IMG/VR virus record: IMGVR_UViG_3300011115_000378
Coordinates: 1-33,912 of that record
Strand: one strand, 5' to 3'
Source of the DNA: a virus
Length of the DNA stretch: 33,912 nucleotides
Of the stretch, positions 5,942 to 32,094 are shown one piece after another. Every line of letters starts with the position of its first letter. The stretch's first letter is position 1. The translations under genes and the position numbers were made by a program. The notes under the pieces were generated by a model. The model was not told the DNA's origin and did no database searches. It saw nothing but the letters and a program-made list of their open reading frames with translations.

Positions 5942-5948
5942 TATTTAT
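5942..5948 (-). promoter_or_regulatory. ATAAATA box, candidate late-type promoter
   Basis: The minus-strand heptamer ATAAATA, within CATAAATAC, sits 8 bases before the ATG at 5934 and just downstream of the capsid terminator. That would restart transcription for the connector and fibre genes. It belongs to a set of eleven intergenic copies. Confidence 0.4.
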
Positions 5949-5970
5949 GCTGTTCAAACAAAGGCTCAGC

Positions 5971-5993
5971 AAAAAAGGGCCCGAAAGCCCTTT
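5971..5993 (-). terminator. Intrinsic terminator after the major capsid gene
   Basis: On the minus strand a perfect 7-bp stem AAAGGGC/GCCCTTT with a 6-base loop runs into six T residues (5976-5971). It begins about 28 bases after the capsid stop codon. This is the clearest transcription stop in the structural half and separates the packaging/capsid genes from the connector/fibre genes. Confidence 0.85.
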
Positions 5994-6021
5994 CTTGTAT
6001 TACATTTAATTCTATTAAGAA

Positions 6022-7194
6022 TTAAGGAGTAACGTCGCCTGCACCTAAGTTTACACGACTTACCAATGCCGCTGGGCGAGCACCTGGTAAAGAGGCTTGT
6101 GCTGTAGTGCCTGCTGTGATGTTGTTTAGAACGCCCACGCCTGCAGGGTTTCTGCAAATCAATGTACCTTCCATGATGAACTGATCCAATGAAGCGTCAG
6201 CATTACTGAATACTTCGTTGTTAGGACCTAGGTCACGTAGTGAACCCCACTGGATAACGTCTTCATTCAAGAAGAAGATTGCGTTAGCATTTACAGAATC
6301 CATGATCCAAGAATCAAAGATTTCGTATGTGTAGTTGAAGTCACCTTCATAAGTTTGAATTGTATCACCACGTGCTGAATCAACACGATTGATACCACGT
6401 GACTGAGCAATGTTATCGCTGATACTAGTGCGTAGACTTGTAGGAGCAACTACTGTGCGGATCTTAGCGTTGTAGCGTTGTTCAGCAACTGTTACCAATT
6501 GCTTGTATAATGCTGGGCTGAAGAACTGGTTAGTAAATGTTCCACTGTAGAACTGAGCACCGTTAGCATAAATCTGCAATGCGTTACTTGCTTGAACAGC
6601 AACGTCAGTAGATTCATTGTTGTAGAAAGAATCTAAACCGCTTGTTGTTCCAGAAGTTGTATTGAAAGATTGTGTGCCAGCGAATGAAGTCAATGAACCC
6701 ATACGACGACCAGTTTGACCACTTGGCAAGCCAGAGGCTGTGCCTGTTTGACCAGCATACTTAGTGCCGATTTGATCATTGCGAACCAATTGTAGTTCAA
6801 CGTCAAACATCAATTCAATCAATTGCTTGACTTCTTGATATGCTTGTGGATCACCACCAGATTGCATAACAGCGCGAGCAGTGCCGGAAGCGGCAATAAC
6901 TGTGCTGAAAATCTGTGTGTAGTTACCCAAGTTGTAACGCTGATTGCTCTGCGCTTGACTTGTAGCAACTGTAGCACCTTCAACCTGTGCTTGTACACCA
7001 GGTGTGCGATAGATGTCATCAGTCCATAAAGGCAAAGTTGAGTTAACTTTACGCTTCTTAGACATACACATGTTTAGAACAGGAGTATCATCTTTAACGC
7101 GGTTGGACACATCTAGGTCCAAATCTTTGACAACGATGTCGCTACCATATGCTGTAGTGCCGTTACCAATTTGACTTGTTGTAATTTCTGCCAT
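6022..7194 (-). CDS. Major capsid protein, SU10/DUF5309-like (390 aa)
   Basis: The ATG has a strong site (AAGGAG, six-base spacer), fitting a highly expressed gene. The N-terminal third carries features I associate with the SU10 MCP family (DUF5309; phages phiEco32/SU10): a PVLNM strand, LPLWTDD (about residues 54-60), then AQVEGATV and NYTQIFSTVIAASGTA (about 92-107), followed by helices with EVKQLIELMFDVELQLVRN. Length is right for that HK97-fold family. It forms the icosahedral shell. Its neighbours agree: the scaffold gene lies immediately upstream (20-bp gap) and a strong terminator immediately downstream. The family is named from remembered motif order. Confidence 0.88.
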   Translation of the reverse strand: MAEITTSQIGNGTTAYGSDIVVKDLDLDVSNRVKDDTPVLNMCMSKKRKVNSTLPLWTDDIYRTPGVQAQVEGATVATSQAQSNQRYNLGNYTQIFSTVIAASGTARAVMQSGGDPQAYQEVKQLIELMFDVELQLVRNDQIGTKYAGQTGTASGLPSGQTGRRMGSLTSFAGTQSFNTTSGTTSGLDSFYNNESTDVAVQASNALQIYANGAQFYSGTFTNQFFSPALYKQLVTVAEQRYNAKIRTVVAPTSLRTSISDNIAQSRGINRVDSARGDTIQTYEGDFNYTYEIFDSWIMDSVNANAIFFLNEDVIQWGSLRDLGPNNEVFSNADASLDQFIMEGTLICRNPAGVGVLNNITAGTTAQASLPGARPAALVSRVNLGAGDVTP

Positions 7195-7214
7195 TTTAGG
7201 CTCCTTAAATTAAA

Positions 7215-8378
7215 TTATCTACCTCTGCCCGACTTCAATCGTTGAAGTTGAGCCATTAAGAGGTTGTCTCCGGCTTTTTTGTCACCGGACTTGGCTTGTT
7301 CACGAAGTTTTTCAATGTTATCATTTGATCCTTTGCCAGTGTTGGAACTTCCTTTGCGACTAGTTAAAGCCGCCATAGAACTACCAGCACTCTTAGTAGA
7401 AGGTTTATCTCTATATCTTAGACCATCACGGACTAGGCTTAATAATGCTTCGTCACTGCTGATCAAATCTATATTTGGCACACCAGGAATTATTTCCTGT
7501 TTGGCGTGTGGCCACAACTTGCCTACCTTTTCACGTATTTCATTAAAGACATATTCATTTTTCAATTCCTTGTCTGTAAATGCTTTGCGTGAACTATCTA
7601 ACCTTTGGCTGACCTGCTGAGCACGAACCTGTCTAAACTGTTCCACTGCTGGCTGGATTTGATTAATCAAACCCTGTTGCTGGCGAATGTATTGTTCATT
7701 TTGATTCATACTTGCTTGGATACGGGCTCTTGCACCTGGATCCTGCGTTCTAGCCAATTGTTGTTGGAATGTAGTTTGATAATTTTGAGTTTTCAAAATC
7801 TCATCATACGCACCTTGCAACTTTGGTTGGATGGTAAACTCCATTGCTAGTGTTAAACCTTCCTGTCTGCTATAAGTCTCTTTTAGATACTCATCAAATT
7901 CAGCCTTTTGAACTTTAAGTTCTCTGGCTTCTTCATGTATTGCTGATCCTTGACCTAAAATACTTGCGGCTTTCTTAGCATCAATAACGACTTCTTTTCC
8001 ATTCTTCATGAACTTGAATTTAGCATTGGGATTAGTCTCCGCAAATTCAACAAAGTCAATTAACTCGTTTGCTTGAGAATCATTACTATCGGCGCTTACA
8101 GTTTCCTGGGCATCCGCTTCTTGACCGTCGCTGTCATATTCTGTGTCGTTGGTATCACCAACTTCGGCGTCAGCGTTTCCGCTGGGTGCCACAGGGTTAG
8201 ATGTTTCTTCTGCCACATCATCTACTCCTGTTGCAGTTGTTTCGGTAGCACCAATTTGATTACGCAGTGTGTTTTCACGCATTGCGGTCATTTTAGCGGC
8301 TATAGAATCCAAACTTGGGACTGCGCTTTGACCAGCGGCCGCACCAGTATCGGTGTTAGGACTTGTCGTTGTTTCCAT
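7215..8378 (-). CDS. Probable capsid scaffolding protein (387 aa)
   Basis: The start has an AAGGAAAATAA site. The protein has the classic scaffold build: a disordered acidic N-terminal region (about residues 45-105, very rich in Asp, Glu, Thr and Asn), a long Gln/Arg/Glu-rich helical or coiled-coil centre (about 160-270), and a basic Ser/Gly/Lys-rich C-terminus ending in a helix (NLLMAQLQRLKSGRGR). Such C-termini bind capsid subunits in P22-like systems. It lies between portal and capsid, the usual place. There is little sequence signature, so the call rests on position and architecture. It acts inside the procapsid and is expected to be absent from the mature virion. Confidence 0.75.
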   Translation of the reverse strand: METTTSPNTDTGAAAGQSAVPSLDSIAAKMTAMRENTLRNQIGATETTATGVDDVAEETSNPVAPSGNADAEVGDTNDTEYDSDGQEADAQETVSADSNDSQANELIDFVEFAETNPNAKFKFMKNGKEVVIDAKKAASILGQGSAIHEEARELKVQKAEFDEYLKETYSRQEGLTLAMEFTIQPKLQGAYDEILKTQNYQTTFQQQLARTQDPGARARIQASMNQNEQYIRQQQGLINQIQPAVEQFRQVRAQQVSQRLDSSRKAFTDKELKNEYVFNEIREKVGKLWPHAKQEIIPGVPNIDLISSDEALLSLVRDGLRYRDKPSTKSAGSSMAALTSRKGSSNTGKGSNDNIEKLREQAKSGDKKAGDNLLMAQLQRLKSGRGR

Positions 8379-8387
8379 TTATTTTCC

Positions 8388-8732
8388 TTAATTAATATCG
8401 GGCACTTCGTTAGTGCTTACGATACGGTTCTTTAAATAAACAGCCCGCTTAAGGCTGCTTACAAAATTGTCAATACCAGCAAGTTCATTGCTTACAGCAA
8501 TTCTTCTAGCATTGTCGTCTGGTTGATGACTGCGAATGGACGCTAATTCATCAGCAAGACTAAATTTAAAATGATGAACAAACATCGCGAGATCTTTGTT
8601 TTTCAATAATCCTTCAGCAAGACTACCATAATGTTTAACTTGGTCCTTTTGACTTGTAGTTAACTTACTGGGTTGACTTAGGTCAACTGTGAGTCTGCTG
8701 TTGTAAAATTCCACTGTGTCTTCGTTTATCAT
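8388..8732 (-). CDS. Small protein between portal and scaffold, function unknown (114 aa)
   Basis: The ATG at 8732 lies 32 bases after the portal stop; the gap holds a CTAAATA box. The protein is mostly helical and soluble: an N-terminal strand region with VEFYNSRLTVDL, then helices (VKHYGSLAEGLLKNKD, FKFSLADELASIRSHQ). No membrane segment or known motif is seen. The gene is followed 9 bases later by the scaffold ATG. Position suggests a role in head assembly, but I do not recognise a family. Confidence 0.72.
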   Translation of the reverse strand: MINEDTVEFYNSRLTVDLSQPSKLTTSQKDQVKHYGSLAEGLLKNKDLAMFVHHFKFSLADELASIRSHQPDDNARRIAVSNELAGIDNFVSSLKRAVYLKNRIVSTNEVPDIN

Positions 8733-8754
8733 ACTGTTCTATTCTATTATATGT

Positions 8755-8761
8755 TATTTAG
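8755..8761 (-). promoter_or_regulatory. CTAAATA box, candidate late-type promoter
   Basis: The minus-strand sequence GCTAAATAACAT lies in the 32-base gap between portal and the 114-aa gene, 22 bases before that ATG. The following TATAAT has no convincing -35 element. Confidence 0.4.
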
Positions 8762-8764
8762 CAA

Positions 8765-11047: not shown

Positions 11048-11071
11048 TATTGGGTTTCCTTAACTAATGTA

Positions 11072-11203
11072 TTATTTAGCGTTTTCTTTAGGGGCATCTT
11101 GTTTTGGCTTTTGTTCTTTAGGATCCTTCTTGCCGAATATGGCATCCCAGTTATCACGGATCTTTTCCGTGTTTTCTTTACGGCGTGTGCTACCCTTACC
11201 CAT
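11072..11203 (-). CDS. Conserved 43-aa protein of the MGKGS-RR type
   Basis: This short gene starts at ATG 11203 and ends at TAA 11074-11072. Its start overlaps the stop of the upstream 73-aa gene (TAATG), a typical coupling arrangement. The peptide begins MGKGSTRRKENTEKIRDNWD and continues with AIFGKKDP and a Lys/Gln/Pro-rich tail. From memory, small proteins starting MGKG-RR and containing NWD-IF are found next to portal genes in several marine podoviruses; their function is unknown. It is highly basic and might contact DNA or the portal. The in-frame overlap and recognisable peptide make it a real gene despite its size. Confidence 0.75.
   Translation of the reverse strand: MGKGSTRRKENTEKIRDNWDAIFGKKDPKEQKPKQDAPKENAK
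11073..11079 (-). promoter_or_regulatory. CTAAATA box before the portal gene
   Basis: GCTAAATAATAC on the minus strand overlaps the stop codon of the 43-aa gene and lies 25 bases before the portal ATG. The Shine-Dalgarno of the portal follows it. It could be a chance effect of the stop codon here. Confidence 0.35.
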
Positions 11204-11630: not shown

Positions 11631-11640
11631 TGTCTATTCC

Positions 11641-13454: not shown

Positions 13455-13743
13455 TACCAAGTTTTTCTTTAACAATGTAAACGTGATGTATTGCAGTGCT
13501 TAGATCACTGAGTTCTTTACTGGATAATTTCCAAGTATCTGGATTATCTAATTCAACACCATCACGCTTGTCTAATCCTGCTTGTAAACGTTCTGTTAAC
13601 AAGCGTAGGATATGTTCTATTTGTCCAGGAAACTTTTCAGCAAAAGCAACTCTGTGACTGGCATTGATCTTTTGTAGGATTAATGTGTCACTGACTCGGG
13701 CTTGTTCAGTGGCTTTGCGTATTTCAGCATCACGTGCTATCAT
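13435..13743 (-). CDS. Helical protein upstream of terminase, possible small terminase (102 aa)
   Basis: The ATG at 13743 overlaps the previous stop (ATGA). A TTG five codons earlier is also in frame but unlikely. The protein is nearly all helix: RDAEIRKATEQARVSDTLIL, then RLLTERLQAGLDKRDGVELD, then SSKELSDLSTAIHHVYIVKE. It is the nearest larger gene before terL, where small terminase subunits usually sit, but I see no clear DNA-binding motif. The 139-aa gene at 17513-17932 is the competing candidate. Function is therefore left open. Confidence 0.7.
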   Translation of the reverse strand: MIARDAEIRKATEQARVSDTLILQKINASHRVAFAEKFPGQIEHILRLLTERLQAGLDKRDGVELDNPDTWKLSSKELSDLSTAIHHVYIVKEKLGNVQSNT

Positions 13744-14531
13744 TTTGTCAAGTCCCAAACATCAGTAACGCCGTCGCCGCCTAAACTGATAAACTCTCTG
13801 TCAATCCATGTATCCCATTGATTGCTGGTGTTTACTTTGAAACTCTGCATCAATCCACGTAGTTTACGACCCTGTGGAGTTAGTGTACCATCATTACGCA
13901 CAATAGTCTGTTCACCACTGCGGGGATCAACCCATTTAATAATTTCAGGACGTTCACGACCATACTTGTCTAATTTCATACCATGTGGACGTTGTTCAAT
14001 TGGTCCAACAATTTCATAACTGATTTCACCACTCTTGTATTTGCGAAAGTATACTGACACTTTCTTGTCCTGCATACGTGCTTCAAAGTCAGTGTGTGGA
14101 ATTACATTACTGACAAATATGTTTTGTAGTTGTGTGGGTTCTGGTAAATGGTTGTCTCTAGCAGGCACAGGCTTTAAGTCTTCTACTGGCACTAGTTCTG
14201 TTCTATCAATATATGGATTGTCTCCGCCAAGAAACTTTGGATCAACTTCTAATCCATTTAATACATCCATGGCAGTTTGATATTTTAATTTATTGGCACG
14301 ACCTTTTAGGTTTAATACTATACCAGTTTCATCAAATACAAATCGTTCTAGTTCTTTGGCTGTAGGGAAGTCTGTCATTAAGCCATCAAGGTCAAAGTCT
14401 GCTGTGCTAGTTGACTTTGGTTGGATGCCAGCAACTTGTTCTGCTACATCAATAATTTCTTGTTGTGTGGGCTCTTCGTCCCAGGGACTGGCTACTTCTT
14501 GAGTAGGCGGTGGTGATAATTTCTTGTTCAT
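13740..14531 (-). CDS. Conserved-looking phage protein of unknown function (263 aa)
   Basis: The ATG at 14531 (MNKKLSPPPTQEV) has AAAAGGAATAG just upstream; the frame extends eight codons further to a non-ATG start, which I reject. The N-terminal ~50 residues are acidic and Pro/Gln-rich, probably disordered. The rest is mixed, with LNGLEVDPKFLGGDNPYIDR near residues 90-110 and a beta-rich, basic C-terminal part (VSVYFRKYKSGEISYEIVGP, then EIIKWVDPRSGEQTI). No enzyme motif is recognised. It heads the coupled run 263-102-67-terL, so it is probably expressed with packaging genes. Confidence 0.75.
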   Translation of the reverse strand: MNKKLSPPPTQEVASPWDEEPTQQEIIDVAEQVAGIQPKSTSTADFDLDGLMTDFPTAKELERFVFDETGIVLNLKGRANKLKYQTAMDVLNGLEVDPKFLGGDNPYIDRTELVPVEDLKPVPARDNHLPEPTQLQNIFVSNVIPHTDFEARMQDKKVSVYFRKYKSGEISYEIVGPIEQRPHGMKLDKYGRERPEIIKWVDPRSGEQTIVRNDGTLTPQGRKLRGLMQSFKVNTSNQWDTWIDREFISLGGDGVTDVWDLTK

Positions 14532-14556
14532 TTCTATTCCTTTTAATATAAGCAAA

Positions 14557-14606
14557 GGAAACTATTGTTTCCCCGCTTACTATGCTATAATAAGACTATT
14601 GTCTTA
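14557..14606 (-). promoter_or_regulatory. Twin hairpins with the same four-base loop
   Basis: On the plus strand GGAAAC-TATT-GTTTCC (14557-14572) and TAAGAC-TATT-GTCTTA (14591-14606) are two perfect 6-bp inverted repeats with identical loops (AATA in the minus-strand RNA). They fill most of the 82-base gap before the 263-aa gene. They may be RNA processing sites, protein-binding hairpins or a weak terminator. A U-rich tract is absent. Confidence 0.5.
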
Positions 14607-14610
14607 CAGT

Positions 14611-14617
14611 TATTTAG
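14611..14617 (-). promoter_or_regulatory. CTAAATA box upstream of the 263-aa/terminase run
   Basis: ACTAAATAACTG on the minus strand overlaps the stop codon of the 56-aa gene and precedes the twin hairpins; the next ATG is 79 bases away. It belongs to the intergenic [AC]TAAATA set. Confidence 0.35.
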
Positions 14618-14784: not shown

Positions 14785-14785
14785 A

Positions 14786-17003: not shown

Positions 17004-17350
17004 CGTTGATTACCTTTAGTTGGGCCACGACCGACATTCATCTTGTCAGCATCGCCTTTATAATTTTGTCCACATACTGGGTCCCAAGCACGAGTGCCAC
17101 CTGGTGTGCGAACTTGTGGATTACTTGAACCCATAAACATTTCTTTACCTAGTCCACTCTTTGGAACACGAGCGGCATCTGGATATGTGCTGTCATCATC
17201 ACTGTGATTACCAACTGTTGGTCCACGACCTTTGTTGATTAATGCATCGCTGTTGGTCTTCATATGTTGATTACCACTATACTTGCCTGTGCCGCGACTA
17301 AATCCAGGTGCAGCCGCGCCAGTTGCTGGGTTTACTTTTTCAAACTTCAT
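17000..17350 (-). CDS. GRGPTxGN-motif protein (116 aa)
   Basis: The ATG at 17350 overlaps the stop of the 48-aa gene (ATGA). The protein is Gly/Asn/Lys-rich and probably extended. It carries GRGPTVGN near residue 42 and GRGPTKGN at the very C-terminus, and the 100-aa protein has a third, related copy. I recall this short motif from small proteins of marine phages, without a known function. A single Cys lies in WDPVCGQNY. It may be a multivalent peptide binding a repeated virion partner. Confidence 0.72.
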   Translation of the reverse strand: MKFEKVNPATGAAAPGFSRGTGKYSGNQHMKTNSDALINKGRGPTVGNHSDDDSTYPDAARVPKSGLGKEMFMGSSNPQVRTPGGTRAWDPVCGQNYKGDADKMNVGRGPTKGNQR

Positions 17351-17493
17351 TTTGATTTTCCTTTTTTACTTGCTGCCGCACGCTTAGTAGCGTATGCGAT
17401 TGCCACGGCTTGCTTTGGGGGCTTGCCTGCGGCTATTTCCTTTTTAACATTCTTAGTGAATGCTGGTTTACTAGTTGATTTAATTAACGGCAT
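17347..17493 (-). CDS. Small conserved basic protein of the MPLIK...GKP-KQAVAIA type (48 aa)
   Basis: The ATG is at 17493 and the TGA at 17349-17347 overlaps the next ATG. The peptide begins MPLIKSTSKPAFTKNVKKEI, continues AAGKPPKQAVAIAYATKRAA and ends in Ser/Lys/Gly. From memory, small proteins with this G-P-KQAVAIA pattern are widespread in marine and other phages and of unknown function. A helix with Ala and basic residues is expected. Overlap with the next gene and the recognisable peptide support it, although it is very short. Confidence 0.75.
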   Translation of the reverse strand: MPLIKSTSKPAFTKNVKKEIAAGKPPKQAVAIAYATKRAAASKKGKSK

Positions 17494-17498: not shown

Positions 17499-17505
17499 TA
17501 TTTAT
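17499..17505 (-). promoter_or_regulatory. ATAAATA box, candidate late-type promoter
   Basis: GTATAAATAAC on the minus strand lies in the 19-base gap before the 48-aa gene, only five bases from its ATG. A transcript started from it would be leaderless or nearly so. Confidence 0.4.
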
Positions 17506-17932: not shown

Positions 17933-18042
17933 AATGTTATTAAGTTAATGCTGTACAAGTTACGCTTGCCTATTCGTTGTTGCCTGGATTAGAAAGACAC
18001 AAAATCATTCCAGTTCTTGATAGCATTAGGGTGTCTTAACCT

Positions 18043-22647: not shown

Positions 22648-22654
22648 TATTTAG
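22648..22654 (-). promoter_or_regulatory. CTAAATA box before the S74-domain gene
   Basis: GCTAAATAATAC on the minus strand lies in the 31-base gap, 19 bases before the ATG at 22628. The ten-base sequence is identical to the box before the portal gene. Confidence 0.4.
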
Positions 22655-22659: not shown

Positions 22660-25600
22660 TTACATTGCGTTGCCTGTGCCCGCGCCTGCTCCTGTGCCAC
22701 CGCCATCACCGCCACCTGATCCACCGCCATCACCTCCACCACCTTGGTTCTGGTTAGACATCAGTGCGTATTCATATTGTGCTTTAATGTTGTTCACAGT
22801 TTCCATATCACCAGCAGCCATTGCCGCTGCCAATCTCTGTGCCATATCATTGCCTAATACACTGGCTACTTGTTGAACTTCTGCTGAAGTCATATTATAA
22901 TTTGTTGGTGTTACAGGTCCTGCAACTGGAGGAGTATATGCTTGTAGTTGGTTAACAGGAGCCTGTGCCAAACTTGGATCATATGCTTGAACTCTTGTTG
23001 CTGGAGTAAATTGTTCTGGAGTATAACGTCCAGCAATAATGTCTTCATAGTCTTGAGCACTCATTGGTGCCGCAACACCTTGAGCACCCCATGGTGTTTC
23101 TGGTGCTGCCACTGCATTGTATGCCTGTGCGTTAAATGTTGGTCCTGCTTGGAATCCATGTCCACCCCAGAAGTATTTGCTTTGTGCGTCATTGGTTGTA
23201 TTGTAAAACGGTGTTGGTTCCATCATACCAGGATTCAATCCAACACCTGTGCTTAATGTTGTTGGAGGAGTTGTAACTACTGGAGGAACAACTACAGGAG
23301 GTTTAGGTGTCACTGGCGGTAATACCACAGGAGGAACTATCACTGGAGGAGGAACAACTGGTGGCACTACTGGTGGCACTGGTGGCACTGGTGGTGGTGT
23401 TATAACTATTTCAGGAACTACTGGAGGCACTACAGGAGGTAATGGACTCTTATTGTGACTTAACAAGCCTTGACAAATGTAAGTATGTGCATCATCAATA
23501 GTAATCATTACTACTGGACCAGGTTCAACTTGTTCAACACTCTTAACTACTTTACCGCTGAGTATATCTCTAAATTTAACATCTTTGGCTGTTACCCAAG
23601 AATCTACTTTATCAAAGAACTTGTGATCATAACTACAAACAATTTCTGTGTCTTCAAACTTAATCTTTAATCTTTGTGCATTAGGAATAATCTCTGTGTG
23701 CGTTACAGGATGATCTCCCCAAGCCATGGTATGTTCATGCTGTGTTCTAACAACATCACCCACGGCTAATTCTCCAGCAGGCTTTTTACTGCCATCGGCT
23801 AGATGTATTAACATTTCTGGACTTGGACAAGTTGGTTTAGGTGCCACAATTTCAACTGTAGGAACAACTGGAGTAACTGGTTTGTCTGCAACTATTTCAA
23901 CAACTGGAACATCTGGCACAACTGGCTTAACTGGTTTATCAGCAACTACTTCTACAACTGGAACTGTGTCATCTTTCTTTGTTACTTTAGTGTCAACTAC
24001 TTCTACTGTAGGCACTGTAGGAATTACTGGCTTGACTACTTTATCACCTGTGACTGTTACTGTTGGCGTAGTAGTATCATCTGTCTTTGTTACTTTATCG
24101 CCTGTTATTTTTATTTCAGGAACTGGTGTTTTTAAATTAGTATTCAACTGTGTGGTAACTGCTGCCAATATGTTTGGATCTACCATAGTTGGAACTACGG
24201 GTGCTGTTACAGCAGGATTGGCTGTGCCAGTTACGTTAACTGTTTCTATGCCAGGAGTTACTGGTGCTACGCCAGTGCCAGCGCCAGTGTTTTCTATAAA
24301 CTGACTAATTTGTTGATTACTCAATCCCTGTGCTTTCAAACTATCAATTAAAGCATTGTCAGCCAATTCATTGAAGTCAATGCCTGCTCCTGGTATAGCA
24401 TCTACTGGAGGAACATAACCTAAGTCTGCGGCACTGGCATTCTCTAACCATTGTCCAATTTGTGCGTTGCTTAGACCCTGTGCTTTTAAACTATCAATAA
24501 CACCTGTCTCTGCTAGGTCGGCAAAGTTAACTGTTGATCCATCTATGGCACCACCGAATATACTGCTACCGCCTCCGGCTGTTGGTGTGCCACCTTGTAG
24601 GTATCCACCCAATGCACCACCAGCACCGCCTAACAATGCTCCTTTAAGAACATCGCCACCTTGAGCGCCTGTTAGTGCTCCGCTGATGATAGCGTTGCCC
24701 AATGCGTTTGTTGCTACTGCACCTGCACCTGTGCCTAATAATGCATTGCCCAATAAACCGCCTGCGCCTGTGGCTGCTAAGGCTAGTTGAACTATGGGCA
24801 TCCATTGTCCTGCATCACTGCTACTCTGTGCTGATGTATAGAAATATGGATTACCTTTGTCATCAAACTGAACACGATAACCTGTGTTGCCTTTACCAGT
24901 ATAAGTGCCACCGAATGCGTCACCTGTTTGGCGCTCACCATAGGTATTACCCACAGTTTGTCCTGTGAGTTTATTACCAAACGTTTCTATCTTTTGATTG
25001 CCTGTAAATGTTTGATTACCTTGTTCATCATAACTGTATGTTGGTTCTTCTTTGACAATCTTACCGAACTGGCTGATGTCTGTGATACCAATGTCACCTA
25101 AGATCCTTGCCATGTCTGCGGCATTCTTTTCTGCACTTCCAAATCCTTCACCAGTCCATTTACTTGTTGTGCCTTGACCTAAAATCTGTTCTACCAAACT
25201 CTTTGGCTGTACTACAGGAGTTATCGTTGGAGCAACTGGAGCAGTAGGCGCCATTGGTGCGCTATACTGTGGCTTAGGTGGAGGAGCAGGTGGCTCATAC
25301 ATTAGTGGTGATTTAATATCAGGAGCAATGGGTCTTGGTGGAATAATCTCTACCGGAGCAGGAGGAGGCTCTGCCTGTGTTTTAGTCTGTGGTTGTGAGA
25401 AATAATCTAGTTCACCAAAGTTGCCAACATTACTACCAAATGATGTATCTTCTAATACTGTGCCACCGCCTCTGGAATAGTTAACAACTGGTTCTGGATA
25501 AACTGGTGCTCGTTCAACGGGTGCTGGCGGTGCATAGACTGTGGGTGCAACTGGTGCTTGAGGAGGCTCAGGAGGTGTATAAGTCTGTGGCTGAGGTTGT

Positions 25601-25782
25601 TGATAATATGGCGTTACATTTGCTTGACTAAAGTAATTATTAATCGTGCCAGTGTCATAGCCTGTTGCTCTAGTCAAGTCATCTAGACTTACTCCATACT
25701 GCTGTGCCGCTGCCGCAATGGCTGCTGGATTTCCAATGTTTGCTTGAACATAGGCTTGAATGTCTGCGTCGCTTACTGCCAT
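22660..25782 (-). CDS. Large proline-rich virion protein with embedded Hint (intein-like) domain (1040 aa)
   Basis: Domains in order: a small helical start (DADIQAYVQANIGNPAAIAA, about residues 5-50); a Pro/Gln-rich linker (about 55-200); a folded part with KWTGEGFGSAEKNAADMARI (about 205-330); a Gly/Ala-rich hydrophobic stretch (about 330-400); two tandem modules with IDSLKAQGLSN (about 417-500); Val/Lys/Pro repeats of the VVEIVADKPV type (about 550-650); a Hint domain from Cys652 to Asn777; a pure Pro/Val linker; and a globular C-terminus with a Gly/Asp tail. It is a central tail or internal-head component by position. The Hint domain has a Cys start and His776-Asn777 end but Lys at +1, so complete splicing is unlikely; cleavage at one or both ends could cut the protein in two. 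Confidence 0.8.
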   Translation of the reverse strand: MAVSDADIQAYVQANIGNPAAIAAAAQQYGVSLDDLTRATGYDTGTINNYFSQANVTPYYQQPQPQTYTPPEPPQAPVAPTVYAPPAPVERAPVYPEPVVNYSRGGGTVLEDTSFGSNVGNFGELDYFSQPQTKTQAEPPPAPVEIIPPRPIAPDIKSPLMYEPPAPPPKPQYSAPMAPTAPVAPTITPVVQPKSLVEQILGQGTTSKWTGEGFGSAEKNAADMARILGDIGITDISQFGKIVKEEPTYSYDEQGNQTFTGNQKIETFGNKLTGQTVGNTYGERQTGDAFGGTYTGKGNTGYRVQFDDKGNPYFYTSAQSSSDAGQWMPIVQLALAATGAGGLLGNALLGTGAGAVATNALGNAIISGALTGAQGGDVLKGALLGGAGGALGGYLQGGTPTAGGGSSIFGGAIDGSTVNFADLAETGVIDSLKAQGLSNAQIGQWLENASAADLGYVPPVDAIPGAGIDFNELADNALIDSLKAQGLSNQQISQFIENTGAGTGVAPVTPGIETVNVTGTANPAVTAPVVPTMVDPNILAAVTTQLNTNLKTPVPEIKITGDKVTKTDDTTTPTVTVTGDKVVKPVIPTVPTVEVVDTKVTKKDDTVPVVEVVADKPVKPVVPDVPVVEIVADKPVTPVVPTVEIVAPKPTCPSPEMLIHLADGSKKPAGELAVGDVVRTQHEHTMAWGDHPVTHTEIIPNAQRLKIKFEDTEIVCSYDHKFFDKVDSWVTAKDVKFRDILSGKVVKSVEQVEPGPVVMITIDDAHTYICQGLLSHNKSPLPPVVPPVVPEIVITPPPVPPVPPVVPPVVPPPVIVPPVVLPPVTPKPPVVVPPVVTTPPTTLSTGVGLNPGMMEPTPFYNTTNDAQSKYFWGGHGFQAGPTFNAQAYNAVAAPETPWGAQGVAAPMSAQDYEDIIAGRYTPEQFTPATRVQAYDPSLAQAPVNQLQAYTPPVAGPVTPTNYNMTSAEVQQVASVLGNDMAQRLAAAMAAGDMETVNNIKAQYEYALMSNQNQGGGGDGGGSGGGDGGGTGAGAGTGNAM
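23452..23829 (-). other. Hint domain (A-type BIL-like) inside the 1040-aa protein
   Basis: These 126 codons encode residues 652-777. They begin CPSPEMLIHLADGS and contain a block-B-like S717-x2-H720 (CSYDHKF). They end with the DDAHTYICQGLLSHN block F/G, His776-Asn777. No homing-endonuclease insert is present. The next residue is Lys778 rather than Cys, Ser or Thr, which is the hallmark of A-type bacterial intein-like (BIL) domains. Proline-rich repeats flank it on both sides, forming exposed linkers. Confidence 0.85.
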
Positions 25783-25806
25783 CTTTGTTTTCCTTTAATC
25801 TTATAT

Positions 25807-26922
25807 TTAACGTTTTATAACCTGTGCTGTGAAACTTCTAAATCCATAATATGCTATTGCAATAGGTTGAATGTTAGGACTGGTTGTTGGATTGTTTGGA
25901 TCATAATATTGATTGTTAAAATATATCTCAAACGTATACAAGAAGTATCCCAATCCAGGATTGTCTATAACATTATTAAATGTATACGATTCAGGTCTAA
26001 AATATGTATAACCATCATATATCACAGTGTCAAATAATGTATATGGAACCGTAACTAAGTTTCCATCCAACTCCCATTCGTATCCATTATACACATATGG
26101 AAATGCTAATGCTCCATTGGGCAATGTTGTAGCATTCTTTGCTTTATATCTGTTTATTCTTAATTCATAGGTCACAGGATCTAATCCAGGATCTATACTA
26201 GTATATGTAGGATTGTTGATATATCCTTTAAAAGGTGCTTGACAAGTAATAAACACTCTGTCTGTTGGACCATTCACGCTGACAGGTGCAAACAAGTCCG
26301 TAACTATGTTTTGTTGTTGCCAACTTATTTGTCCACCTGAAGAATATGCTGTCCATGTTTGGGCACCATCTAATCTTAACAAACGCAGTGTGCTGATAAA
26401 TGGACCAGAACTATGAACTGCTATTCTATAATCTCCATTGTATATTGCTGGAGTCACTCCTGATATTGTTACCTTTTGATTTAACGCAAAACAGTTTTCA
26501 GGACCATTAGTTGTGAATATAAATTCCGTGTTTGTAGTCAATGGAGTAGTAATGTATGTTCTATTAACTGTAATGTCTACATCAATGATATTGTTAGTCA
26601 CACTTGTAATATTTGTGATAACAACGTTGGGAGTTGTGATACCTGGCGGTGTTGTTTGGTAAAAGTCTATGCTACTTAACTGTGGCCAATAGTTAACATT
26701 ACTTGGACTTGCGACATTACCTGTGACCGTAACATTATTAGTAAACGGTGCTGCCATGGCATTAGTAAGCATATCATATCTAAATGATGTTACTACATTG
26801 TTGGCAGGATCAGCAGTTTTACTTACGCCTTCAAAGTTTTGTCCTAAACCTGTTGGTCCACTAAGAAGATAATTAACTGCTTCAACAACAGCATCAGGAT
26901 TGTCTATTGGATATTGACTCAT
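25807..26922 (-). CDS. Tail-region structural protein with beta inserts (371 aa)
   Basis: The ATG overlaps the previous stop (TAATG), so it is coupled to the 639-aa gene. The N-terminal part (NPDAVVEAVNYLLSGPTGLG, then QNFEGVSKTADPANNVVTSF) is of a type I associate with marine podovirus structural proteins of unknown role. Around residues 120-205 there is a beta insert (TNTEFIFTTNGPENCFALNQ, KVTISGVTPAIYNGDYRIAV), similar in style to one in the 639-aa protein. The last 100 residues are Tyr/Asn/Pro-rich beta sheet. Likely part of the tail hub or fibre attachment; no enzyme motif. Confidence 0.72.
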   Translation of the reverse strand: MSQYPIDNPDAVVEAVNYLLSGPTGLGQNFEGVSKTADPANNVVTSFRYDMLTNAMAAPFTNNVTVTGNVASPSNVNYWPQLSSIDFYQTTPPGITTPNVVITNITSVTNNIIDVDITVNRTYITTPLTTNTEFIFTTNGPENCFALNQKVTISGVTPAIYNGDYRIAVHSSGPFISTLRLLRLDGAQTWTAYSSGGQISWQQQNIVTDLFAPVSVNGPTDRVFITCQAPFKGYINNPTYTSIDPGLDPVTYELRINRYKAKNATTLPNGALAFPYVYNGYEWELDGNLVTVPYTLFDTVIYDGYTYFRPESYTFNNVIDNPGLGYFLYTFEIYFNNQYYDPNNPTTSPNIQPIAIAYYGFRSFTAQVIKR

Positions 26923-28841
26923 TATCTATCATCTTCCACTTGTGTGTACTGCCATGTTATTGCTGAACATTGCCAAGTGTCTGTATAACTTACATCACTT
27001 ATTTCAATGTTGTTTACACGGAATGCATTTTGATTAATCTGCGCCCAAGGATTACTTGTATCTAATGTCACTGTTATTGGTGTTGATACACTGCTGGATG
27101 ATCCCACTGAGTTGGCACCTTCTATGGTAATGTCAATACTGCCTGTTGAAGGAACTATGACTACGCCACGGCTATCCACATTGTTGACTTCAGGTAGGAT
27201 ACGATGAACCATCATCTTGCCGCTGTAGTCTTTTAATAACTTGATATTGTTTTGTCTATACACTGATGTTATGTTGCCATTTGGATTACCTGTAGTAGTT
27301 AGAAACGCTGTGCCTTGATCTTTCATAACAAGTTTTTTACTGGCAGCACCTTGAACATAAACAACTGTTCTACTTGCTGGGTCATTCTTCCAAGTACTTG
27401 AACCAGTGTCATAATACCATACTGGACTTTCCACAGTGGAGATAGCATTTGAGACATCACGTGGGGGATTCCATATATCTAAATCATATCTGTATGCCAA
27501 CATCTTATTTGGCACACCATTTGTTGCCGCTGTGGTTGGATAGTATATTTCAATTTGATTCTTATTGGTGTTTACTTCCATGAATATTTTATCAGTATGT
27601 AAAGGATCAACTTGGTCAAAGAACCAATTCTTTACACGTTGATTACCTAGACCTGTAAACTCATTACCATCAAATACCCATATATCTCTGGCATCAATAC
27701 CATATACCATTCTGTCAGTATTAACACTACAACCAGGATTCAATAGTCCACGACCAGTGTTAAACAATCTTACACCAATGATTGGTGCTGATGTTGTTGA
27801 ATAGTTTAATGGACTGAACACAACTGTGTCCCAATAACTACAAATGAATAGTTGTCCGTTGCTGGGAAAAGCATCTTGAACAGGTCCACGCAATGGAACT
27901 TCAAGTTGGTTGGCCACGTTTTGAATTGTTGGTTCCCATGTTGAGGGCATTTGATTTAAGCCAAAACTTTGACTCCATTGCACTGTGGCAGGGAACCTAG
28001 TTGCTACATTGTCTAAGGTTGTAATTGTTAAATCTCCAGCAACCAATATACTTCCAACATTTGGTGTTGAATACATACGCAGAAAGCCTGCTTTCAAACT
28101 TTTCCATACTGTGGGCAAATAGTTCCACACATAACTTTGATTGACAGTGCAACTTGTGCCTAATGTAATGCCTGTCAAAGCACAGGTTATCTCTACATAG
28201 GTTGTTGTACTTGCTGTGACTTTCCAGTTAGCATTGAATGCCGCAGTGGTAGCACCTTGAACTAGAACATAGCCACCAATATCAAAAGGTATTGTTGCCT
28301 GTGCTGTGGTAAAGGTTATTCTTACTGTGCCTGTTGTTGGGTATGTTATTGCTGTAAATGCCAGTTCTGTCTTAGTGCCATAACGAACCATTACAGGAGC
28401 ACCCGTGCCTTCATCAGGCCAAAACATAGGATTACCTACATTGTCATTGAACACTGGCACTGTGCCGTTCCATGATTCTGTGATATTAGTTGCCAGTGTA
28501 TAACCTGTGATTGAGGGCTGTATGGTAGCACCAACGTTGGGATTGATCTTAGTCCAAGTTAAGTCTTTACTGGCATACCAATCTCCGGCTGTGTTGGCAA
28601 CAACAAACCAAAAGAATCCGTCTTGTCTATAACTGCCAGTGACAAATATAGGAGTGCCAGGCACTGTGGCCAATATCTCTTTGTCTCCAAACACTGATTT
28701 CAATCCACGAACATCAGTTTCAACATTACTACCTTCATTGTATTCATTAGGTCCAAGTGCGGTACTAGGCACATCAGGAGTATAACTCATCTTGCTGAAA
28801 GGTTGTCTTACTTCGTTTAAGGGATTCTTTATATTGGCCAT
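26922..28841 (-). CDS. Tail nozzle / DNA-stabilisation-like protein (639 aa)
   Basis: A large beta-rich protein with no membrane segment. The N-terminal phrase NEYNEGSNVETDVRGLKSVF (about 32-52) and repeated strands ending in Trp/Phe (GSYRQDGFFWFVVANTAGDW, VYGIDARDIWVFDGNEFTGL) fit beta-propeller nozzle proteins, the functional class of P22 gp10 or T7 gp12. A small beta insert (TIPFDIGGYVLVQGATTAAF, about 183-235) interrupts it. It is the first gene of the long late run, after the tRNA, with a possible promoter in the 80-base gap. The Shine-Dalgarno site is weak (GGAA four bases before the ATG). The fold call is inference from pattern and position. Confidence 0.65.
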   Translation of the reverse strand: MANIKNPLNEVRQPFSKMSYTPDVPSTALGPNEYNEGSNVETDVRGLKSVFGDKEILATVPGTPIFVTGSYRQDGFFWFVVANTAGDWYASKDLTWTKINPNVGATIQPSITGYTLATNITESWNGTVPVFNDNVGNPMFWPDEGTGAPVMVRYGTKTELAFTAITYPTTGTVRITFTTAQATIPFDIGGYVLVQGATTAAFNANWKVTASTTTYVEITCALTGITLGTSCTVNQSYVWNYLPTVWKSLKAGFLRMYSTPNVGSILVAGDLTITTLDNVATRFPATVQWSQSFGLNQMPSTWEPTIQNVANQLEVPLRGPVQDAFPSNGQLFICSYWDTVVFSPLNYSTTSAPIIGVRLFNTGRGLLNPGCSVNTDRMVYGIDARDIWVFDGNEFTGLGNQRVKNWFFDQVDPLHTDKIFMEVNTNKNQIEIYYPTTAATNGVPNKMLAYRYDLDIWNPPRDVSNAISTVESPVWYYDTGSSTWKNDPASRTVVYVQGAASKKLVMKDQGTAFLTTTGNPNGNITSVYRQNNIKLLKDYSGKMMVHRILPEVNNVDSRGVVIVPSTGSIDITIEGANSVGSSSSVSTPITVTLDTSNPWAQINQNAFRVNNIEISDVSYTDTWQCSAITWQYTQVEDDR

Positions 28842-28861
28842 ATGGTTCCAGTCTATTGTAT

Positions 28862-28868
28862 TATTTAT
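28862..28868 (-). promoter_or_regulatory. ATAAATA box before the tail operon
   Basis: CATATAAATAATACAAT on the minus strand lies 20 bases before the ATG at 28841. It contains TATAAATA, the exact T4 late-promoter octamer, and heads the longest unbroken gene run in the genome. Confidence 0.45.
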
Positions 28869-28924
28869 ATGTTTTTACAGTCAGCGAAAAAGAAAGATAA
28901 AAATCATATGTGAACTTATTAGTT

Positions 28925-29002
28925 TGGCAGGGGGTACAGGATTTGAACCTGTGCATGGCAGAATCAAAATCTGCTGTCTTAACCGAACTTGACGAACCCC
29001 CA
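28925..29002 (-). tRNA. tRNA-Gln (anticodon UUG)
   Basis: The minus strand folds as a complete cloverleaf: D-stem GTC/GAC, anticodon stem GCAGA/TCTGC with loop TTTTGAT (anticodon TTG, reading CAA), and T-arm ACAGG-TTCAAAT-CCTGT. The acceptor stem pairs TGGGGGT with ACCCCCT, the discriminator is G, and CCA is encoded. Position 1 against 72 is U-U, an open pair, where E. coli tRNA-Gln has the weak U-A pair that GlnRS opens. It lies between the 87-aa gene and the tail operon. It may supplement CAA decoding for the Gln-rich virion proteins. Confidence 0.93.
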
Positions 29003-29009
29003 GTATTCA

Positions 29010-29273
29010 TTAACTTACCTGCATGACATCAAAGTCTTCACAGCCAAACTTATGATTAAGTCTTCTAACCTGTGCCTTTGCATTGCCAAGATTAGTATAG
29101 GATAACTTTTGATATTTGAATCCCTGTGTAGTCATAGTGTTGACATGTTGTCTAACTCCGCAGGGTTTGTCTTTGTATGTGACTACATAGTAACTTTCTG
29201 CCTGCATGATATCCCAAGTTGAGCCATCACCTACTTCTGCTGTCAGCATTATTTTTGGAGAAGGACGTGCCAT
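29010..29273 (-). CDS. Small protein of unknown function next to the tRNA (87 aa)
   Basis: The ATG lies two bases after the stop of the 67-aa gene. A beta-strand-rich protein (STWDIMQAESYYVVTYKDKP, CGVRQHVNTMTTQGFKYQKL) with a short basic helix (NAKAQVRRLNHKFGCEDF) and no known motif. Two Cys residues (C38 and C77) are present. It ends seven bases before the tRNA. Function unknown. Confidence 0.68.
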   Translation of the reverse strand: MARPSPKIMLTAEVGDGSTWDIMQAESYYVVTYKDKPCGVRQHVNTMTTQGFKYQKLSYTNLGNAKAQVRRLNHKFGCEDFDVMQVS

Positions 29274-29274
29274 A

Positions 29275-29478
29275 TTATACCTTTAAAAATCTATCTATTT
29301 CAGGTTCGCTGAGTTTGGCCAATACCCATGCTTCATCTGTGAATTCTACTTCATAGTATTCAAGTTCTCTGTGAAATGTTATTTTACTAGCAAATTTATT
29401 ACAACAATTATGTAATCTTCGTTCTTGATCATCGTCCATGTTAGCAAGACGGAATAGGTCTGTTTTTGCTATTACCAT
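29275..29478 (-). CDS. Small protein of unknown function (67 aa)
   Basis: The ATG follows the HNH-gene stop by one base, so coupling is likely. The protein is acidic with a Cys-Cys pair in LHNCCNKFASKITFHRELEY and a strand-helix ending (VLAKLSEPEIDRFLKV). That ending has the same strand-plus-helix pattern as the small proteins flanking terminase, a weak resemblance only. No Shine-Dalgarno is seen. Confidence 0.65.
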   Translation of the reverse strand: MVIAKTDLFRLANMDDDQERRLHNCCNKFASKITFHRELEYYEVEFTDEAWVLAKLSEPEIDRFLKV

Positions 29479-29479
29479 A

Positions 29480-29857
29480 TTAGAAGTAGTCTTTCTTTAT
29501 TGGTTTCATTGTGGCTTGTTTGATTATTTTGTTGGGTCTAGCACCATGTTTCTTTAAGGGTTTGATTTCCCAGTGATTTGGATTTAAACAAGTCTTTGAT
29601 CCACAGGCATGTGTTACTTCTTTTTCTTCACAGTCTTCATTAAACCAATCTCTGTATAAGATTCTACAGGCCTGTGTCATTTGTGGTATGCCATTTTTTT
29701 GACAGCCAAATAGAGGACCATGCTGTGTTTGTGCAAAGTTAGTAGCAGGCCAACATTCATCTGGACCTAGACGTATGACTTTTTCATTTAGGCGTTTTGT
29801 GTTCCAACTCCATTGACCTACTTGTTTTTTGTTTTCTGGTTTTGTTTTGTTTACCAT
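29480..29857 (-). CDS. HNH endonuclease-like protein (125 aa)
   Basis: The pattern Cys35-Trp36 (DECWPATN), HGPLFG, then VTHACGSKTCLNPNHWEI (residues 81-98: His83, Cys85, Cys90, Asn92, His95) is that of the small phage HNH_3-type nucleases. In these, the H-C...C-NP-H motif forms the zinc-stabilised beta-beta-alpha metal site. Both ends are basic. Such genes are often selfish homing enzymes but can also assist packaging as nicking enzymes. Here it is in the accessory region, away from terminase. The upstream gap holds two overlapping ATAAATA boxes. Catalytic activity is unproven. Confidence 0.72.
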   Translation of the reverse strand: MVNKTKPENKKQVGQWSWNTKRLNEKVIRLGPDECWPATNFAQTQHGPLFGCQKNGIPQMTQACRILYRDWFNEDCEEKEVTHACGSKTCLNPNHWEIKPLKKHGARPNKIIKQATMKPIKKDYF

Positions 29858-29878
29858 TTGTTATTTGCCTTTATATGT

Positions 29879-29889
29879 TATTTATTTAT
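29879..29889 (-). promoter_or_regulatory. Two overlapping ATAAATA boxes before the HNH gene
   Basis: TATAAATAAATAAC on the minus strand gives two overlapping ATAAATA heptamers (29883-29889 and 29879-29885), about 21 bases before the ATG at 29857. The 59-base gap is otherwise AT-rich without structure. Confidence 0.4.
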
Positions 29890-29916
29890 ATGATTAGTTC
29901 TATATATAGATAACTG

Positions 29917-30669
29917 TTAACCTTCACTATTCCATTGTTCAGTGTATGTGGGAAACTGATTCATAACTGCTCTTGCTTCATCTTCTTTTTGTACACTGAA
30001 TAGATATAAAATTCTGCGTTTGAACTCTTCATAGGCTTCATCAGTAGTATTACTAACGATATAATTTGTATTGTTATAGTCTGCTGTTATCAATGCATCT
30101 TTGATTGAGTGTGGTCCAGGAAAGCCTTTGTATATTCTAACTGAGGATTGTTTACGTCCTGCAACATCATCTGCACTGCATTTTTGATCCAATATAAATT
30201 CATGTTCAAAGTCTTTGGCCATCCAGCGTATTTTCCATTGAAAGAACTCTGGACTAACCATTTGCCTTATTGCCACAACAGCACTGACTTCCTGGGGCAT
30301 TACCCATTTGAAGTGTTTGCGCTTATCCGCTGTTTGGAAACTTTCATTCATATTTGGCATTGCAACTAGTGCAGGGATTTGAGCATTGATTCTACCACTG
30401 CGTATTTCATAGTTTAGGTTATTGGCTACATCAATACAACTTTCATAAAACTGTTGATTATCTCTCCAATAACTCAATCTGCGTAATTGGCTGGGTGGCC
30501 ATACCAAACTACTTCTAAGTTTGATTGGGCTACCTTTATGTAAGAAGTTTAGTTCAATCTTATATCTGTTTTTGACATCAGTTTTAATGTCAGGAATTTC
30601 ATACCAACGATTTGCTGGCAGTGTGGGTTTGTTATCGTATATTGTTATACCTATTTGGTTTACTCTCAT
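29917..30669 (-). CDS. Accessory-region protein of unknown function behind four repeats (250 aa)
   Basis: I choose the ATG at 30669 (MRVNQIGITIYDNKPTL). The frame is open back to a GTG at 30777, but that extension is made of the repeats and has no ribosome site. The protein is mixed alpha/beta, basic in the first half (KNRYKIELNFLHKGSPIKLR, then PSQLRRLSYWRDNQQFYESC), with no membrane segment and no motif I recognise. It is the largest gene of the accessory region and the only one preceded by an array of 18-20 bp repeats. It is therefore the best candidate for a DNA-binding regulator or replication initiator, but the sequence itself does not show such a domain. Confidence 0.72.
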   Translation of the reverse strand: MRVNQIGITIYDNKPTLPANRWYEIPDIKTDVKNRYKIELNFLHKGSPIKLRSSLVWPPSQLRRLSYWRDNQQFYESCIDVANNLNYEIRSGRINAQIPALVAMPNMNESFQTADKRKHFKWVMPQEVSAVVAIRQMVSPEFFQWKIRWMAKDFEHEFILDQKCSADDVAGRKQSSVRIYKGFPGPHSIKDALITADYNNTNYIVSNTTDEAYEEFKRRILYLFSVQKEDEARAVMNQFPTYTEQWNSEG

Positions 30670-30682
30670 ATTTGTCTTTCTT

Positions 30683-30890
30683 GGTGTGCTTTTAGTAATA
30701 CTGCTTGTTGAGTTGCGGTGTGCTTTTAGTAATAAGACATATAATATTATATATACTAACATTATTACTAAACGCACACCAGAGGTGCTTATTGCGTTTC
30801 ATAACAGAAGCACTTCGTGTATCTCTTGACAGAGATTTGTTGTTTGTTGGAGTCAAGAGAAAAGGAATGCCTTATTACTAAACGCACACC
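30683..30890. repeat. Four copies of an 18-20 bp repeat, two in each orientation
   Basis: GGTGTGC[T/G]TTTAGTAATA occurs at 30683-30700 and 30717-30734 on the plus strand, and inverted at 30761-30780 and 30871-30890. The two inner copies face each other around an AT-only-like core (ACATATAATATTATATATAC), forming a 19-bp stem with one mismatch. A 9-bp inverted repeat TCTCTTGAC/GTCAAGAGA (30822-30830, 30852-30860) lies between the third and fourth copies. This fills the 245-bp gene-free stretch before the 250-aa gene, with one copy ending 14 bases from its ATG. It looks like operators or origin iterons. Confidence 0.85.
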
Positions 30891-30898
30891 TGTTCCGG

Positions 30899-30921
30899 AA
30901 AAAAATGAATCCATCATTCAT
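30899..30921 (-). terminator. Possible intrinsic terminator after the 75-aa gene
   Basis: On the minus strand ATGAAT-gatgg-ATTCAT is followed by a seven-T run. The stem is short and AT-rich, and it overlaps the stop codon of the 75-aa gene. A weak but plausible terminator insulating the repeat region. Confidence 0.5.
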
Positions 30922-31141
30922 CCCCGAGGTCATTGTTCTTTACCATGCTTGTTACTTCTAAGAAGTTTGGATTTAGCACAGTTTGTATTATTGTGCCATC
31001 ATCATATACTTGATATTGTTGCCAATCGTAATCACCAAAAGTCATGTTGGCATACTGGAATATTTCGTAGCCGTCTTGCTCAATGCTGACTATGTCATAT
31101 TCAAAATGACCAAGTTTATCGCTGATTATTTGAACTTTCAT
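30914..31141 (-). CDS. Small acidic protein of unknown function (75 aa)
   Basis: The ATG overlaps the stop of the 142-aa gene (ATGA). The protein is acidic and Tyr/Asp/Gln-rich (FQYANMTFGDYDWQQYQVYD), with likely beta strands and no Lys/Arg cluster. Small acidic early proteins are often inhibitors or DNA mimics, but no specific similarity is seen here. Confidence 0.65.
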   Translation of the reverse strand: MKVQIISDKLGHFEYDIVSIEQDGYEIFQYANMTFGDYDWQQYQVYDDGTIIQTVLNPNFLEVTSMVKNNDLGDE

Positions 31142-31566
31142 TTTACTGCTCCAAACAAGTCATTGTATGCTGTATTGGTTTGAGCACGTAGATTACCCAT
31201 GCGCCATTCCCAACTTGTTTCTTTTTTGATTGCGGCTGCAAACATAGGTTGCATTACACCATTTTGTCCAGTGCGCCAATTAACTATATTACATGCTATC
31301 AAATCCTTTAATGGACACTCCAACATCTCTCCGTGTATTTTGTTATAGCCACGATGCGTGTTGTATTTTGGTAGTGCGCCTTGGGGATGACTTCTGTTGA
31401 ACAAGTATTGTATTTCACCCACTGTGAAACTACCCTTGTCGTCAAAGTTTTTCATTGCTTTAGTTATTGCTGGATAACCATTTTCATCCAACTTACTATC
31501 ATACATGTTTTTGAATCTGGTTTGACAACTGTCTAACCACTGTGCTGTGTTTTTTAATGCGGACAT
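31138..31566 (-). CDS. Accessory-region protein of unknown function (142 aa)
   Basis: An exceptionally strong Shine-Dalgarno (AGGAGG, five bases before the ATG) suggests high translation. The protein has a helical start (MSALKNTAQWLDSCQTRFKN), an FTVGEIQYLFNRSHPQG segment near residues 47-63, and a C-terminal part with WEWRMGNLRAQTNTAYNDLF. It is basic overall with no known motif. The upstream 120-base gap has an ATAAATA box and the terminator of the previous gene, so it probably starts its own two-gene unit with the 75-aa gene. Confidence 0.7.
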   Translation of the reverse strand: MSALKNTAQWLDSCQTRFKNMYDSKLDENGYPAITKAMKNFDDKGSFTVGEIQYLFNRSHPQGALPKYNTHRGYNKIHGEMLECPLKDLIACNIVNWRTGQNGVMQPMFAAAIKKETSWEWRMGNLRAQTNTAYNDLFGAVK

Positions 31567-31642
31567 CTCTGCCTCCTGTAATATGTAGATTTATAGGTTC
31601 TACTTTGACCTTTTGTATTTGCCAATACTTTCTATCCTAATG

Positions 31643-31649
31643 TATTTAT
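31643..31649 (-). promoter_or_regulatory. ATAAATA box before the 142-aa gene
   Basis: TATATAAATACATT on the minus strand contains the octamer TATAAATA. It lies 76 bases before the ATG at 31566 and just after the terminator at 31661-31684. Confidence 0.45.
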
Positions 31650-31660
31650 ATAACACATTC

Positions 31661-31684
31661 AAAGAAAGGGGTCTTAGCCCCTTT
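31661..31684 (-). terminator. Intrinsic terminator after the 115-aa gene
   Basis: On the minus strand AAAGGGG-ctaaga-CCCCTTT is followed by CTTT, giving a T-rich run TTTCTTT. It begins three bases after the stop codon of the 115-aa gene. Confidence 0.85.
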
Positions 31685-31686
31685 TA

Positions 31687-32034
31687 TTATGGTGTTCCGT
31701 GTTGTAAGTAAAACGCTTTGAGCATAACTCGTTTTAGATATTTGTGTGGATTTTTTTTGAGTTGTTTAAGACGAAGTTTTTCAATACTGCGGCCAAGTGC
31801 ATCATAGTCTGTGGTGCTCATCCAAATTGAATGTTTAATTTCTTTGATACAGGCCTCAAATGTGGTTAAGTCACTGAGTTCAGCGTAGCCCAAACTGTCA
31901 GTGTCAACTTTCTTTTCACCGGGACGAAGCAAGCACCAAGCATTTTCTTTAACTACGAAATCATGACATGCTTCAACGAGTTCGCTGTCAATGCCCTGCA
32001 TCCACATTATAGATTTAAATTCATTGTATTTCAT
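31687..32034 (-). CDS. Early-region protein of unknown function (115 aa)
   Basis: The ATG has an excellent AAGGAG site and is driven by the near-consensus promoter at 32066-32094, giving a short leader of about 25 bases. The protein is helical: MKYNEFKSIMWMQGIDSELV at the start and a very basic C-terminal half (SIEKLRLKQLKKNPHKYLKR). It forms a one-gene unit bounded by a promoter and a terminator, typical of an early host-takeover or regulatory gene. No family is recognised. Confidence 0.75.
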   Translation of the reverse strand: MKYNEFKSIMWMQGIDSELVEACHDFVVKENAWCLLRPGEKKVDTDSLGYAELSDLTTFEACIKEIKHSIWMSTTDYDALGRSIEKLRLKQLKKNPHKYLKRVMLKAFYLQHGTP

Positions 32035-32065
32035 TTAGGTCTCCTTTTGTTATTGCCTATGCTGT

Positions 32066-32094
32066 ATTATAGCAAATGTATTTAGCAAAGTCAA
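32066..32094 (-). promoter_or_regulatory. Sigma-70 promoter P2 (extended -10)
   Basis: The minus strand has TTGACT, a 17-base spacer and TATAAT preceded by TGC. Expected transcription starts about 32059-32060, 25 bases before the 115-aa ATG. A CTAAATA box (32079-32085) lies within the spacer. Confidence 0.85.
32079..32085 (-). promoter_or_regulatory. CTAAATA box inside the P2 spacer
   Basis: GCTAAATACATT on the minus strand sits between the -35 and -10 of P2, 44 bases before the ATG. The same site could serve early and late transcription or be a repressor target. Confidence 0.3.

Follow-up and report, generated by a model that had tools for sequence, protein, structure and literature searches.

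Boxes and genes of the window

The window, i.e., the whole stretch of 33,912 nt analysed here, carries all of its called genes (simple ORF calls) on the minus strand, and the gap fraction is 4.4%. The first 127 bases are identical to the last 127 (1..127 and 33786-33912; no strand assigned), which leaves ~33,785 bp of unique sequence and marks the window as a complete genome, either circular or terminally redundant. Similar end overlaps were found in three relatives, and the ends of another contig lie at adjacent TerL positions. Judged from these ends, the genomes are complete, circular or circularly permuted, with a size of ~34-37 kb, and in complete genomes the absence of a gene carries meaning. 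The ORFs 3-2822 and 33446-33910 probably belong to a single gene that spans the seam.

The exact count of the heptamer [AC]TAAATA gave 11 matches on the minus (coding) strand and 2 on the plus strand. The eleven coordinates listed in the initial annotation of this DNA were each exact and on the minus strand, and the reverse orientation, which it had noticed just twice, near 5265 and 10928, occurs only at 5263 and 10927, both within genes. The total of 13 in the whole window is no excess over the 17.4 obtained from shuffles; the signal therefore resides in placement and strand. As had been claimed, the boxes are confined to gaps or to stop codons at gene ends: 10 of the 11 sense boxes are entirely within gaps, and the remaining one, at 11073, shares bases with the stop codon of ORF 11072-11203. 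Dinucleotide-shuffled gaps held 2.7 boxes on average and 9 at most, and none of 2000 shuffles reached 10. Antisense matches in the gaps numbered 0, against 0.85 expected from the shuffled gaps.

All sites described below are on the minus strand. The box ATAAATA at 5942..5948 is located 7 nt before the conserved ATG (5934) of gene 5374-5934, which is predicted to be leaderless, and an intrinsic terminator is found just upstream. CTAAATA at 8755..8761 stands 22 nt before gene 8388-8732, whose family is boxed in 10 of 22 cases and has a homologue in the sister clade (see below) too. The CTAAATA boxes at 11073..11079 and 14611..14617 precede the portal gene by 25 nt and gene 13740-14531 by 79 nt, respectively, the latter with an inverted repeat in its leader. 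At 17499..17505, ATAAATA is separated from the ATG of gene 17347-17493 by exactly 5 nt; a Shine-Dalgarno sequence is absent, and a leaderless mRNA is predicted. The degenerate box CTTAATA (17938..17944), which precedes the ATG of gene 17513-17932 by 5 nt, corresponds to an intact box in relatives and is probably a decayed copy.

In the remaining part of the window, CTAAATA at 22648..22654 lies 19 nt before gene 21666-22628, a family with the box in 20 of 20 members, and ATAAATA at 28862..28868 lies 20 nt before the virion gene 26922-28841. The 1040-aa product of ORF 22660-25782 weakly matches a PT-HINT domain, under Pfam's cut-off, and a tRNA-Gln (TTG) gene (28925-29002) is placed directly upstream of the boxed virion operon. 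The matches at 29879 and 29883 had been counted as separate sites; both are exact, but they overlap and form a single double box, ATAAATAAATA (29879..29889), 21 nt before the HNH gene 29480-29857. ATAAATA at 31643..31649 is 76 nt before gene 31138-31566. Finally, CTAAATA at 32079..32085, 44 nt before gene 31687-32034, lies between the two elements of a sigma70-type promoter (32066-32094), in the 17-bp spacer.

Conservation and spacing of the box in related genomes

When IMG/VR was scanned with the portal protein, 80 relatives were obtained (78-87% identity); these are non-independent samples. The portal gene was boxed in 80/80 of them: the 77 nt that precede the portal ATG contain exactly one [ACT]TAAATA in each, at a distance of 20-36 nt, and the flanks, the spacing and the upstream gene vary around the kept box. 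All 64 distinct portal upstream sequences were boxed, against 7.8 expected from shuffles. In 22 related contigs (644 kb), 217 matches were on the sense strand, 162 of them touching gaps, and 34 on the antisense strand, 8 of them touching gaps. An unbiased count of over-represented gap words in the same contigs returned just the Shine-Dalgarno sequence and ACTAAATA, the latter with 67 occurrences versus 2.6 expected and 0 for its reverse complement. The initial annotation had said that many same-strand copies inside genes, or a lack of conservation in relatives, would refute its proposal; neither was found.

The relatives sharing the box span 35-47% G+C. In the sister clade around MW202484, whose portal is 46% identical, 68 loci showed no sense bias, with 50 sense and 70 antisense matches, and no comparable gap enrichment (11 and 12 touching gaps). 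The box is therefore a clade-specific trait.

The distance from the box to the ATG was bimodal. Among the 185 gap sites of the 22 contigs, 52 were at 3-7 nt, 35 of them at exactly 5 nt, none was at 8-11 nt, and the remainder were at 12 nt or more, mostly at 15-28 nt. The Shine-Dalgarno sequence was absent from 47 and present in 8 of the close class (n = 55), and it was present in 39 and absent from 6 of the class at 14-31 nt (n = 45). The families of genes 5374-5934 (19/19 boxed at 5-7 nt), 17347-17493 (13/14 boxed at 5 nt) and 17513-17932 (16 boxed, every one at 4-6 nt) belong to the close class, and those of the portal gene, 21666-22628 and 26922-28841 to the far class. A transcription start 6 nt past the box would account for both, i.e., a leaderless close class and a far class with ordinary leaders. 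The ATG of the leaderless class is most often 5 nt after the box, and +1 is a predicted position.

The orientation of the box follows the gene. The relatives have an opposite-strand gene, acetyltransferase-like by eye and missing from the window; in 16 of 18 cases it is boxed on its own strand, 19-28 nt before the start. It sits between the Dps-like gene (18043-18474) and 17513-17932, where the window keeps the degenerate box at 17938-17944. In the family of gene 5374-5934, a terminator-like hairpin was found directly upstream of the box in 19/19 members and in none of the shuffled controls. No conserved -35 or sigma70 -10 element was detected around the box at the gap sites, and the information content near -35 was 0.12 bits or less. 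The 8-bp box is the sole conserved element, as in promoters of the T4/Aeh1 class, where it reads (T/a/g)(A/C)TAAATA; the boxes here have it with A or G at -13 and C (57%) or A (30%) at -12. From the spacing classes, the own-strand orientation, the upstream terminators and the absent -35/-10 elements, we infer that the box is a promoter, and its assignment to the T4/Aeh1-like late promoter class is well supported by these sequence features.

The family of gene 13740-14531 has its box 43-79 nt upstream. In the window (14532-14610) and in most relatives, the leader contains an inverted repeat between the box and the Shine-Dalgarno sequence, with perfect stems of 8-12 bp whose sequence differs. 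In several relatives this inverted repeat begins about one base after the box, which fits awkwardly with a predicted +1 six bases past it.

Early and late genes and the search for a reader

Ten of the 22 contigs had sigma70 promoters with at most one mismatch in their gaps, mostly in the variable region. Of 16 strong ones in the family, 4 have the ATG at exactly 6 nt past TATAAT, which is an internal sign of leaderless starts. The two strongest of the window precede 31687-32034 and 32364-32534. The latter promoter has the consensus TTGACA-17-TATAAT (32541..32569, minus strand) with TTAAATA in its spacer and is located 6 nt before the ATG, so that 32364-32534 is predicted to be a leaderless early gene. 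These genes belong to a hypervariable early module (window 29000-33300; relatives G002-G025), in which the replication genes differ by relative (DUF5906, VapE-like, Prim-Pol, AAA, and the polymerase-like F51/F79); none was recognisable in the window.

The boxes stand before the portal, tail and other virion operons, as expected for late promoters, and it is from this placement that they are called late. The boxed variable genes include no helicase, primase or polymerase-like family. MCP, TerL and several others are not boxed themselves and would be transcribed together with other genes, MCP and TerL by readthrough.

The T4 late box is tied to gp55 and the sliding clamp in T4-related phages, and late transcription in T4 depends on gp55 and is linked with replication. 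A homologue of gp55, which T4 late systems encode, was not found here: phrog_234 had no match in 39 records, and neither a gp55 HMM against all ORFs nor hhalign against the families, with Aeh1 gp55 added, gave anything significant, while the positive control, Aeh1 gp55, was recovered at 100%. Family scans of the proteins showed no gp33 or gp45 sliding clamp family among the matches listed. The earlier remark that gp55, gp33 and the clamp are unrecognisable thus holds for gp55 by profile searches, and for gp33 and the clamp it is judged from family scans alone. Among the matches listed for the scanned families, there was no sigma factor or RNA polymerase. For the proteins of the variable region, the matches listed were to primase, helicase, HNH and similar families, and a weak single match may lie beyond the 25 of a list. 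No early family is common to all genomes and could thus serve as a universal early reader; eight long genomes have ~20 families in common, mostly virion or unknown.

The orphan early gene 31687..32034 (minus strand; 115 aa) was considered as a speculative reader candidate, because 20 residues are weakly gp55-like, and was rejected as a gp55 relative, with an hhalign probability of 18% and no homologues in viral contigs or phages. Profile searches with four core proteins against PDB gave no significant match, and AlphaFold predicted two long helices for 13435 and an alpha/beta structure for 13740, neither of which had a PDB fold match at E<=0.001. A host search against genome contigs found no relative, and among open papers none was seen that describes the box in podoviruses lacking gp55. 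The likeliest reader is a small diverged or new phage factor acting on the host polymerase, in line with the small polymerase-reprogramming protein offered as one option in the initial annotation; a host sigma factor, or one supplied by a co-infecting T4-like phage, is less likely.

Comparison with known promoters and possible readers

The T4 late promoter is TATAAATA at -13 to -6, and that of Aeh1, a T4-like phage of Aeromonas, has CTAAATA from -12 with a or g at -13 (PMC1524935, PMC2988020). With respect to the predicted +1, the boxes described here share with Aeh1 the sequence (a/g)CTAAATA, with CTAAATA from -12, ahead of late genes. However, Aeh1 has a genome of 233 kb and encodes gp55 and gp45, whereas gp55 was not found in this family with its genome of ~34 kb, in which many genes are predicted to be leaderless at exactly 5 nt from the box. 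They share with T4 the single box at -13 to -6, again in the register given by the predicted +1, and the lack of a -35 element; they differ in their bases at -13 (A or G) and -12 (C or A), and in that gp55 was not found and the clamp and gp33 were not recognised among the matches listed. The first proposal for this DNA, a late promoter system similar to the T4 late box, is strongly supported and can be narrowed to the Aeh1 variant. CTAAATA motifs have also been reported from an Ackermannviridae phage (PMC7283392).

The phiEco32-like phage SU10 uses a single motif, tAATGTATAtA, 6-8 nt upstream of the start, with an ECF-type sigma (PMC4281155). It is likewise a podophage, with the gene order portal-small gene-scaffold-MCP, a Dps-type gene and phage-controlled single-motif promoters (PMC4281155), but the box here differs from its motif and such a sigma was not found. 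The best hhalign probability for the SU10 sigma was 1.8%, and the defining features of phiEco32 sigma36 promoters were not seen.

Taken as a whole, the data make it highly probable that a T4-late-class box of the Aeh1 variant drives most virion operons via a phage-supplied factor. The element (a/g)[C/a]TAAATA would span -13 to -6, and transcription would start 6 nt past its last A. Host sigma70 promoters would run the early phase, and the box would then drive most virion operons, several of the genes being leaderless with the A of the AUG as the predicted +1. We infer that the box initiates transcription late in infection and is read by the host core RNA polymerase with a phage-supplied specificity factor in the role of gp55, perhaps a small early protein that is unrelated to gp55 or has diverged strongly from it.

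A host-encoded alternative sigma factor as reader would account for the missing phage reader, but is unlikely. The box has T at -11 and no -35 element, and to our knowledge there is no bacterial sigma with these properties. In addition, the same box occurs across relatives of 35-47% G+C and is unused by the sister clade. Slightly less probable is reading in trans by gp55, with gp33 and the clamp, from a co-infecting T4-like phage. The sequence and register of the box match the Aeh1 late promoter, and neither gp55 nor an early family common to all genomes was found; however, these phages have their own early sigma70 promoters and, in many relatives, replication genes and look autonomous, and no helper is known. 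If it were true, a fully equipped phage lacking a late sigma would have adapted its virion operons to the late box of T4-like phages, would have them switched on just when a T4-like co-infector supplies gp55, and would thus parasitise the late switch of another phage. A single-subunit or virion RNA polymerase of the phage, reading the box as a short promoter, is improbable: F51 and F79 are polymerase-like proteins by motifs seen by eye in three relatives, but neither the window nor most relatives show them, and no RNA polymerase family is among the matches listed.

The initial annotation had also offered a repressor or RNA-processing site, and both are disfavoured by the fixed 5 nt to leaderless ATGs and by a box that tracks gene direction. 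An operator for a repressor or activator is very improbable. Sigma70 spacers of the window do contain two boxes or box-like words, and TAAATA occurs in 4 of the family's 16 strong early promoters, but the box is non-palindromic and oriented, no sigma70 element is conserved around it, and most copies have no surrounding sigma70 promoter to repress. An RNA signal for translation or processing is the least probable reading, because the box, although near start codons, is 43-79 nt upstream in the family of gene 13740-14531, never occurs at 8-11 nt, and in the leaderless class lies outside the predicted mRNA.

The same box and register without a detectable gp55 in complete genomes of 34-37 kb would mean a new minimal specificity factor, or else dependence on another phage. 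Such a factor would have either converged on gp55 or diverged from it beyond recognition. The 185 gap sites of the 22 contigs are predicted transcription starts, many of them leaderless, in a widespread group of uncultivated aquatic phages.

The strong early sigma70 promoters that hold TAAATA in or beside them (4/16) include 32066-32094 and 32541-32569 (minus strand) of the window and those of relatives G014 and G018, and they are possibly dual or switch promoters. Another word, CGTTACG, recurs in early sigma70 spacers (G005 25269, G010 15364, G019 17591 and 19265; oriented coordinates) and is perhaps an operator.
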